A stretch of DNA of 35,904 nt from a virus. Positions within the stretch are counted from its first letter, which is position 1; each line of letters opens with the position of its first letter. Shown here piece after piece: positions 22,123-24,537 of this stretch. A model generated the notes under the pieces. It was not told where the DNA came from. It was given only the letters and a program-made list of their open reading frames with translations, and ran no database searches. A program made the translations under genes and the position numbers. Where the stretch lies: the IMG/VR virus record IMGVR_UViG_3300017783_000085, positions 1-35,904 of that record. One strand, 5' to 3'.

Positions 22123-23351
22123 AAGAGTATGAAAATCAAGTTATAGTTTGTCCGGTTTGCAATTCATCTAATATTAAAAAAAATGGTTTCCATCACAATA
22201 AAACAACCGGCAGCAAGCAAAGATACAAATGTAATACGTGTGGTTATAAATCAATAGATATGATGATGCTAGACAAGGAAGTTATTACGGAAAATGTAAG
22301 GCTTGCAAAGAGGGTACAAAAAGCAAACGATAGAAATAGGATAGGAAATAAATCTTTTAGAGAGTTTGCTAGGCTAGATAACGCAATAGGGGAATATTCC
22401 AAGCATTTAATACGAATATTTCAAGAAGTACCTATACCGAAGTTTAAAAAAATAAGCGTAAAAGGATCAAAGGGAACTGCGGTTATACAAATATCAGACA
22501 CACATTTTAATGAATTTGTAAATATGGAAAGCAATCAATACGATATGGATATAGCGTCTAAAAGAATGAGGACGTTTATTCGTAAAGCTAAAATATATTT
22601 AAAAGCCAACGGCATTAAAAAGGTCTTTATAGCTATTACCGGAGATTTAATGAACTCTGACAGAAGATTAGATGAATTATTATCTATGACATCTAACAGA
22701 GCAAACGCAACGTTCGTGGGTGTTGAAATTTTAAAACAAACTATAGAAGACATAAGGCAAGACTTTAAAATTAGTATAGGGTGTGTTAGCGGCAACGAAA
22801 GTAGAGCAAACCAAGAGATGGGTTATAGTGAGCCGGTTGCATCAGACAATTACGACAATACAATATTTAACATTCTTTATTATATATTTAAAGACAGAAC
22901 AGATATAGAGTTTATACCTATGAAAAATTCTTTAGAATTAGTTGTTGACGTAGAAGGGCATAAAATACTACTCATACACGGACATTCCGTTAAAGGTAAG
23001 GTAGAGTCATCGGTAACTCAGATCAAAGGTAGGTATGCTTCGCAAGGTATAAATTTAAATTATATATTATTTGGACATATACACTCTGCAAGAATAGGAG
23101 ATACTTATGGTAGAAGTTCATCGCTAGTAGGAGCAAATGCTTATTCAGAGAAAGCATTAAACTTGGAAAGTAGGGCATCTCAAAACGTTTATATTTTTTA
23201 TAAGGACGGGAATAGAGATGGCTTGAAGATAGATTTGCAAAATTATGACGAAAAAGGATATGATATTACAAAAGAGTTAGAAAGTTATAACTCTAAGTCC
23301 GTTGGAAAGCTATCCGAAGGAAAGGTTATATTTCAAGTTGTTAAGATATAA
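22119..23351 (+). CDS. Metallophosphoesterase with N-terminal zinc ribbon
   Basis: A 410-residue protein. Residues 1-46 are a transposase/InsA-like zinc ribbon (C11, C14, C38, C41; CPVCNSSNIKKNG, then YKCNTCGY). The calcineurin-type phosphoesterase core follows: D127 and H129 in ISDTH, G175-D176 in ITGDLMN, G225-N226-E227, H287 and H289 in LLIHGHS, and FGHIHS at 318-323. All metal ligands are present. The domain pair suggests a DNA-directed phosphodiesterase, comparable to SbcD/Mre11, with the ribbon binding nucleic acid. It lies between the resolvase-like gene and the methyltransferase. Substrate is inferred. Confidence 0.85.
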   Translation: MKEYENQVIVCPVCNSSNIKKNGFHHNKTTGSKQRYKCNTCGYKSIDMMMLDKEVITENVRLAKRVQKANDRNRIGNKSFREFARLDNAIGEYSKHLIRIFQEVPIPKFKKISVKGSKGTAVIQISDTHFNEFVNMESNQYDMDIASKRMRTFIRKAKIYLKANGIKKVFIAITGDLMNSDRRLDELLSMTSNRANATFVGVEILKQTIEDIRQDFKISIGCVSGNESRANQEMGYSEPVASDNYDNTIFNILYYIFKDRTDIEFIPMKNSLELVVDVEGHKILLIHGHSVKGKVESSVTQIKGRYASQGINLNYILFGHIHSARIGDTYGRSSSLVGANAYSEKALNLESRASQNVYIFYKDGNRDGLKIDLQNYDEKGYDITKELESYNSKSVGKLSEGKVIFQVVKI

Positions 23352-23539
23352 TGTTTGATTATTGTGAAAAAATAAAAAAAAATTGCCCTTTTTCTACTAA
23401 AACAAACGAAAACCGAGAAAGATGGAAAGAAGGTAAAGAAGAAGTTTACTATTGCGGTATGGCATCATCAATAAACAGAATAGACTGGATGAAAGAATGT
23501 CCTTTAGATAAGAAAAAGAAAAAGTATAAAAGAAGGTAG
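23351..23539 (+). CDS. Small Cys-rich protein, unknown
   Basis: A 62-residue basic protein. It has four cysteines (CEKIKKNCPF near 5-12, YYCGMA near 35, ECPLDKKKKK near 49) that could bind zinc. Ends KKKKKYKRR. It starts on the last base of the previous stop. Not recognised. Confidence 0.6.
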   Translation: MFDYCEKIKKNCPFSTKTNENRERWKEGKEEVYYCGMASSINRIDWMKECPLDKKKKKYKRR

Positions 23540-23541
23540 AG

Positions 23542-24537
23542 TTGAAACACGGAAGTTTATTTAGCGGTATAGGTGGTATTGATCTAGGCTTTGAAATGGC
23601 GGGAATAAAAACTACTTGGACTTGCGAAATTGATGATTGGGCAAACGGGTTATTAAAAAAAAGGTTTCCGAATGCACATCACTATAGAGATATAAAAGAA
23701 ATAGGTAAAAATAATTTAGAAGATGTTGATATTATAAGTGGGGGATTTCCTTGTCAAGATATTAGCACAGCTAAAAGAGGAGGAGAAGGATTAGATGGAG
23801 AACGGAGTGGTCTTTGGTTTGAAATGTGGAGAATTATTGGCGAGTTACAGCCAAGATGGGTTCTTATTGAGAACGTCGCAAATCTCACTTCTAAAGGAGG
23901 AGAAAGAGTTCTTTACGACCTTGCCAAAATCGGGTATGATGCAGAATGGCAAGTTATATCAGCAAAAGACGTTGGAGCAAAACACCTTAGAAAAAGAATC
24001 TGGATCGTCGCATACCCGAAAAAAATATCCAACACCTTGCGCGGGAAACTGGAAAGATTCGATAGGGAGTCTAAAGGGGAGAGTGGGAACAAAACACGAA
24101 GAGGGAACGATAGCGAGAGTTATATTCAAAGATCAAGTCTTAAGCTATCCAACACCGAGAGCAGCAGACATAGAGGGGGGAGTGGCGAGCAACGTAAAAT
24201 TAAAAAAGGGAAGGTTCAGCAGGACAAACAAGAAAGGACAAAGGTGGGGAGTAAAACTAAGAGATGCTCTACTAAATTATCCGAACCTAAACAAGAAAGA
24301 ACAAAGCAAGATATTGAGGGAAAAGATAGAGCAAATGGAGAATTTAGAATCGAAACCTTTGAAAGGCTTAAAAATGAACCCAAGTTGGATAGAGTGGCTT
24401 ATGGGTTATCCCAAAAATTGGACAGATATAACGATAGAGTCAAAGGACTTGGAAATGCAGTCGTACCACAAATCCCATATCAAATAGGAAAACGAATAAT
24501 GTTAATAAATAATATAATAGGAGAGCAAAATGAGTGA
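23542..24537 (+). CDS. C5 cytosine DNA methyltransferase
   Basis: A 331-residue protein starting with TTG after an AGAAGG site. Motif I is LFSGIGGIDLGFE (7-19), the catalytic PC pair is in GGFPCQDIS (C71), motif VI is IENV (109-112), motif VIII is HLRKRIWIVAYP (148-159) and motif X is GLGNAVVPQ (302-310). It transfers a methyl group from SAM to cytosine, probably protecting phage DNA from host restriction. Residues about 160-270, where the target-recognition region should lie, are low-complexity and rich in Lys, Arg, Glu, Ser and Gln, with no visible fold. That stretch is the one overlapped by another well-formed ORF (23795-24487). Target sequence cannot be told. Confidence 0.9.
   Translation: MKHGSLFSGIGGIDLGFEMAGIKTTWTCEIDDWANGLLKKRFPNAHHYRDIKEIGKNNLEDVDIISGGFPCQDISTAKRGGEGLDGERSGLWFEMWRIIGELQPRWVLIENVANLTSKGGERVLYDLAKIGYDAEWQVISAKDVGAKHLRKRIWIVAYPKKISNTLRGKLERFDRESKGESGNKTRRGNDSESYIQRSSLKLSNTESSRHRGGSGEQRKIKKGKVQQDKQERTKVGSKTKRCSTKLSEPKQERTKQDIEGKDRANGEFRIETFERLKNEPKLDRVAYGLSQKLDRYNDRVKGLGNAVVPQIPYQIGKRIMLINNIIGEQNE
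23795..24487 (+). CDS. ORF nested out of frame in the methyltransferase gene
   Basis: A 230-codon ORF in the +1 frame relative to the methyltransferase, beginning at its codon 85. It starts directly after an in-frame TAG and a very strong AGAGGAGGAGAAGGA ribosome region. The product is protein-like: FLLRTSQISLL (23-33), LPKSGMMQNGKLYQ (43-56), two YPTPxA units (78-83 and 118-123, the second followed by AD) and MNPSWIEWLMGYPKNWTDI (194-212). From memory, the phrases SGMMRNGKLY, PTPxAxD and NPxWVEWLMGxP occur together in phage and prophage proteins annotated near or as C5 methyltransferases. The other frame still encodes essential methyltransferase motifs VI, VIII and X over the same bases. Function unknown; could be a separate protein or joined by recoding. 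Confidence 0.7.
   Translation: MENGVVFGLKCGELLASYSQDGFLLRTSQISLLKEEKEFFTTLPKSGMMQNGKLYQQKTLEQNTLEKESGSSHTRKKYPTPCAGNWKDSIGSLKGRVGTKHEEGTIARVIFKDQVLSYPTPRAADIEGGVASNVKLKKGRFSRTNKKGQRWGVKLRDALLNYPNLNKKEQSKILREKIEQMENLESKPLKGLKMNPSWIEWLMGYPKNWTDITIESKDLEMQSYHKSHIK

Follow-up and report, generated by a model that had tools for sequence, protein, structure and literature searches.

Nested genes of a phage locus predicted to encode the two subunits of a C5 cytosine methyltransferase

The methyltransferase locus described here most probably (about 0.88) encodes an M.EcoHK31I-like C5 methyltransferase made of two subunits, in which an outer gene would supply the catalytic chain and a gene nested within it the small domain of a proposed heterodimer. 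Lee, Kam and Shaw reportedly found in 1995 that the coding sequence of the M.EcoHK31I small chain lies within that of the large chain, in a different frame. The outer (alpha) gene, for a C5 cytosine methyltransferase, occupies 23542–24537 (+ strand), has a TTG start and encodes 331 residues. The inner (beta) gene, for the predicted small-domain subunit, occupies 23795–24487 (+ strand) in the +1 frame, starts with ATG and encodes 230 residues, with PTP cassettes and motif IX. The window, the whole stretch of DNA analysed, is a 35,904-base virus record that also contains phage genes for a terminase large subunit, a DnaD-like helicase loader, a RusA-like resolvase, an exonuclease and a single-strand-binding-like protein. 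The methyltransferase gene sits between the last two. A 62-residue ORF with several cysteines (23351–23539) overlaps the exonuclease stop codon and precedes the methyltransferase; a PHROG search with this ORF returned no match.

The outer protein matches the Pfam DNA_methylase family (1.4e-47) and phrog_363 (PHROG 363; 9e-74), which carries the label DNA methyltransferase. It contains motifs I–VIII and X. Motif IV (PCQ), with the catalytic cysteine, was located at 23749–23757 (+ strand) by translation and alignment to M.HhaI, and motif X (GLGNAVVPQ) at 24445–24471 (+ strand) by translation. Motifs I–VIII correspond to the span of the profile match to single-chain enzymes; the M.HhaI alignment covers outer residues 5–160 only. 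Motif IX is absent from the outer frame at this locus, which sets the gene apart from single-chain C5 methyltransferases.

The inner ORF exists as the sequence-only reading had described it, in the +1 frame relative to the methyltransferase ORF, and it does begin directly after an in-frame TAG (23792–23794). The resulting TAGATG (23792–23797, + strand) is kept in nearly all close relatives and is not general. A Shine–Dalgarno-like AGGAGG lies upstream of the ATG, at 23778–23783 (+ strand), and this purine-rich site and the ATG are kept in the close group of inner genes. A conserved GAT codon creating the inner ATG was considered as a general feature and rejected, as the loci have 18 GAT against 17 GAC there; beyond the close group, the exact start based on GAT is not kept. 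All of the inner motifs quoted earlier are present, namely SGMMQNGKLY, YPTPCA, YPTPRA and NPSWIEWLMGYPKNWTD. The inner protein matches phrog_1008 (PHROG 1008; 5e-19), which is also labelled DNA methyltransferase, and despite this label it has no catalytic motif. PHROG 1008 and PHROG 363 are thus the direct family matches of the inner and outer proteins, respectively, and the label of the former is silent on a complementary subunit.

The C-terminal part of the inner family has an invariant core, NPxW(I/V)EWLMG(Y/F)P, which in the window reads NPSWIEWLMGYP. In a profile–profile comparison of the inner family with single-chain C5 enzymes, the sole alignment placed KMNPSWIEWLMGYPKNW on RLTPKECQKLQGFPDWF, which is motif IX. 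The match was weak (E 0.089, against 0.76 for a column-shuffled control), so its placement counts as evidence more than its score. By its sequence and place, we identify the inner core as motif IX of C5 methyltransferases, carried here by the small chain.

C5 methyltransferases comprise a large catalytic domain and a small domain, consisting of a variable region and motif IX, that makes specific DNA contacts (PMC3404938). The gene is divided at the boundary between these domains, which is why a heterodimer is proposed; we also count PMC5944983 in support of the two-subunit reading. In the two-polypeptide enzyme M.EcoHK31I (YGGCCR), the large chain carries motifs I–VIII and X and the small chain motif IX (PMC3404938). 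The division of motifs in the window pair is identical: the large chain has motifs I–VIII and X and lacks IX, and the small-chain gene lies inside it in another frame. The window pair differs in that it belongs to a phage, as an orphan enzyme within a replication module, and the two are likened by motif layout, not by kinship. In the second two-polypeptide enzyme, M.AquI (CYCGRG), the split falls in the C-terminal part, and the smaller chain contains part of the variable region and motif IX (PMC3404938). There the small chain carries motif X; here the outer chain does, and one gene lies inside the other. Two mycobacteriophage loci (L030 and L032) and locus L143 do resemble M.AquI. In the mycobacteriophages, a second gene encodes the inner family; it overlaps the first only in part and also has motif X, and both genes are annotated as DNA methyltransferase/methylase. 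The ShiLan domain, an HNH endonuclease encoded out of frame inside a phage methylase as a mobile, homing-type insertion (PMC11855218), likewise places a gene out of frame in a phage methylase. An HNH insertion does not apply to the window locus: the inner product overlaps core methylase motifs and matched no endonuclease family in the searches run. We found no survey of the nested arrangement in the open-access literature.

To evaluate the open inner frame, we simulated sequences encoding the fixed outer protein with codons drawn from local usage. In these, 16.7 inner-frame stops were expected and not one of 2000 simulations lacked stops. When the gene's own codons were permuted, 7.5 stops were expected and again no draw was stop-free. 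In the reverse test, with the inner protein fixed, 16.4 outer-frame stops were expected and 0 of 2000 simulations were open. The inner frame is open far beyond chance. An ORF this long could be selected by eye among many, but not at the simulated probability, and the relatives decide. The idea that outer codon or amino-acid bias alone opened the frame draws on two facts: the outer motif GYDAEW accounts for part of the conservation of the inner frame (SGMMQNGK), and the +1 frames of other C5 methyltransferases reach about 150 codons in this place and, in one GC-rich case, 260. Set against the simulations, the inverted codon-position pattern described below and conservation across phyla, this idea deserves almost no credence. 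SGMMQNGK, one of the motifs first taken to mark the inner product, is therefore partly a by-product of the outer frame, but the inner frame is itself selected there, since synonymous change is suppressed.

Codon-position change was measured in frame-blind DNA alignments of ten loci (24 pairwise comparisons, which are not independent); outer codon position 1 is inner position 3. In the outer-only region, change at outer positions 1, 2 and 3 was 0.162, 0.078 and 0.369, respectively. The overlap was divided into segments, of which segment A (23795–24016, + strand) encodes outer motifs V–VIII and inner residues 1–74. Here, both frames are constrained: change was 0.125, 0.059 and 0.179, such that change at the outer wobble position fell from 0.369 outside the overlap to 0.179. 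Segment B (24017–24364, + strand; ∼115 codons) encodes the inner PTP cassettes and an unconserved outer linker. In this segment the pattern was inverted, at 0.455, 0.257 and 0.217, the highest value being that of the inner wobble position, and this inversion occurred in nearly all of the 24 comparisons. As outer position 1 is inner position 3, this is the signature of coding in the inner frame only, the outer chain being a free linker. Segment C (24365–24430, + strand), in which the same bases encode inner motif IX (NPSWIEWLMGYPKNW) and outer EPKLDRVAYGLSQKLDR, had the lowest change of all segments and was low at every position (0.144, 0.078 and 0.066). The sequence-only reading had noticed this double-reading stretch at about 24373–24420; the stretch is real and lies at 24376–24427. 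The end of the gene after segment C changed by 0.160, 0.114 and 0.242.

Synonymous change in outer codons was compared between the overlap and the upstream part of the gene in four locus pairs without a common member. Synonymous change was lower in segment A than before the overlap (stratified OR 2.6, p=4.7e-5), and likewise in segments C and D (OR 3.8, p 6e-6). Together, the position pattern and the suppression of synonymous change indicate that both frames are selected in segments A and C, and mainly the inner frame in segment B. Selection on one frame only had been named in advance as the sign of a chance ORF; the locus has two selected coding frames.

These data also bear on whether ribosomes reach the inner frame solely through programmed frameshifting after motif VIII, to yield a fused single-chain enzyme. 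The window does have an A7 run at the outer/inner junction, where a +1 shift would join motif VIII to the YPTP cassettes. This run is absent from the nine relatives compared, selection also acts on the inner N-terminal part, which would precede the shift, and the close group retains a separate ATG and ribosome site for the inner gene. We rejected programmed frameshifting as the A7 run is not conserved, and consider it very improbable.

The inner protein, used as the query against viral contigs, yielded 27 loci. In a separate viral scan with the outer protein, all 54 of the 54 phage loci keep the inner +1 ORF open (120–343 residues), most with a clear NPxWVEWLMGFP motif. This result meets the objection that a search with the inner protein would bias the selection of loci, and it is the opposite of the free inner-frame stops that would be expected of a chance ORF. 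Scanning one genome per species revealed at least 345 relatives of the inner protein, a lower bound obtained with two short peptide patterns. The 80 relatives that were fetched came from Pseudomonadota, Bacillota, Bacteroidota, Actinomycetota, Verrucomicrobiota, Gemmatimonadota, archaeal MAGs and others, and in essentially all of them the partner was a +1 ORF over the methyltransferase. Among 155 non-redundant phage and prokaryotic loci, the partner was in the +1 frame in 154; 132 were fully nested, 14 had an inner end just past the outer end, eight extended well beyond it, and the one single-frame locus (L163) is probably a frameshift. A search of plasmids gave three matches only. The earlier suggestion of an old, conserved overlap is borne out.

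Inner and outer genes are linked. In 299 Pseudomonadota genomes sampled evenly over the phylum, the inner family occurred in 15, and all 23 of its 23 places were in the +1 frame over the outer gene. Among the loci examined, the inner family was never found away from the outer gene. Conversely, single-chain C5 methyltransferases obtained by a Pfam family search of 30 genomes with a nested locus contained no match to the inner family; their +1 ORFs were short as a rule, and nested genes from the same search did match. In a quick tree of the motif I–VIII region, 56 nested rows formed one group (SH-aLRT 96), and the nested label required two changes against 15.4 with shuffled labels. The tree is compatible with a single origin of the nested arrangement and does not prove one. 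A more divergent nested locus, L190 (G021), adjoins the 56-row group. Its +1 frame encodes RWLSGSERLKMMGFASDW, which is near the canonical motif IX, and did not match the inner-family profile; judging from this sequence, the nested arrangement may reach beyond the inner family. At two loci (L023:2727-3575 and L115:2622-3587), the outer linker is interrupted by a stop codon, which leaves motif X in a downstream ORF of the same frame, and the inner ORF is open; these are either pseudogenes or a tolerated split.

The strongest argument for the identity of the inner core is how motif IX is distributed between the frames. By pattern, the motif was in the inner frame only at 140 loci, in the outer frame only at five (L025-L027, L038 and L074) and in both at none. 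Nine loci had no pattern match: five have a degenerate inner-frame motif by eye (L024, L066, L079, L088 and L120), L021, L022 and L076 are cut by contig ends, and L077 has the motif in the third frame. The outer, inner and motif IX pieces of L077 thus lie in three different frames, possibly in a frameshifted or sequencing-damaged copy. Where motif IX is outer, a shortened inner ORF (129–177 residues) is still open (L025:2622-3407, L026-L028:2622-3494, L074 and L038:664-1689). In L025-L028 and L074, this ORF keeps the SGMMxNGKxY and PTP motifs. The loci with an outer motif IX look like transitional or three-part arrangements.

Of the three roles first offered for the inner product, a specificity partner, a regulator or an unrelated gene, a specificity or small-domain partner is best supported. 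It is favoured because the inner protein has the motif IX that the outer one lacks, fills the place of the missing target-recognition region and, in the loci examined, always accompanies the outer gene. A separate role, for example as a regulator or anti-restriction factor merely sharing the DNA of the methyltransferase, would agree with the N-terminal part (SWKT..SGMMQNGKLY..LPTP) staying open where motif IX is outer (L025-L028 and L074), and the inner protein has no solved relative. The unbroken linkage to the outer gene at the loci examined and the possession of the single core motif missing from the outer chain argue against it, and we consider such a role improbable.

The inner N-terminal part is separated from motif IX by one to four cassettes of the form [YFLW]PTPxAxD. 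Among close relatives these are inserted, lost or exchanged, as is expected of target-recognition units. In two close relatives (L006:578-1390 and L013:2-871), the inner protein has tandem duplicated PTP cassettes in two to four copies, which suggests a recombination-driven change of specificity. In M.EcoHK31I, the predicted target-recognition domain is in the large subunit (PMC3404938); here, the candidates are the variable cassettes of the small chain. The precedent lends some weight to a variant that overlaps with the two-subunit reading in probability, namely that the inner protein supplies motif IX only and target recognition resides in the outer linker. We consider this variant unlikely, as the outer linker is unconserved in the clade while the inner PTP cassettes are selected, and the cassettes remain in the inner ORF even where motif IX is outer (L025-L028 and L074). 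For the present clade, the sequences thus favour the inner chain as the one that recognises the target.

Sequence and profile searches identified no solved relative of the inner protein. AlphaFold2 models had a pLDDT of 43 with a 12-row alignment and, with a 97-row alignment, a pLDDT of 65.5 and a pTM of 0.38, which is low confidence. A fold search of the latter model against the PDB gave no match, and its BFVD matches look like annotated relatives, not an independent fold assignment. The poor model may mean that the protein folds only with its partner, or it may be meaningless.

In the two-subunit enzyme that we propose, the outer frame would encode the large catalytic domain, with AdoMet binding, the PCQ nucleophile, ENV, motif VIII, an unconserved linker and motif X. 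The inner +1 frame, from its own ATG, would encode the small domain, in which an N-terminal segment is followed by one to four swappable PTP cassettes and then by motif IX. The cassettes probably contact the target sequence, and the two chains would assemble into one DNA-binding cleft. The pair would methylate DNA; being an orphan enzyme of a phage, it probably shields the phage genome from host restriction.

The M.EcoHK31I-like division is already known; here it is apparently the rule for a large, old clade. The odds seem about even that two subunits are obligatory throughout a Dcm-like methyltransferase clade found in phages and prophages of many phyla, and that its entire specificity domain is encoded, as exchangeable cassettes, out of frame. 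Many genes annotated as orphan cytosine methyltransferases would then, as annotated, be half-enzymes, and the pair would rank among the larger, older overlapping gene pairs of prokaryotes and their viruses. If the inner subunit is needed, a clone with recoded codons would make an inactive enzyme, and the outer protein could not be used to assign specificity. For the study of overlapping-gene evolution, too, the locus is well suited, as segments selected in both frames, in one or in the other stand side by side, and it would be a natural source of split, cassette-based C5 methyltransferases. In the annotated nested examples examined, from an Acinetobacter phage, an E. coli phage, a Microcystis phage and E. 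coli prophages, only the outer gene is listed. Three E. coli prophage-like loci (L204:1420-2322, L205:1381-2409 and L207:1378-2364) are each annotated as a single DNA cytosine methyltransferase and contain unannotated +1 ORFs of 244–311 residues with LNPAHxRWLMGxP.
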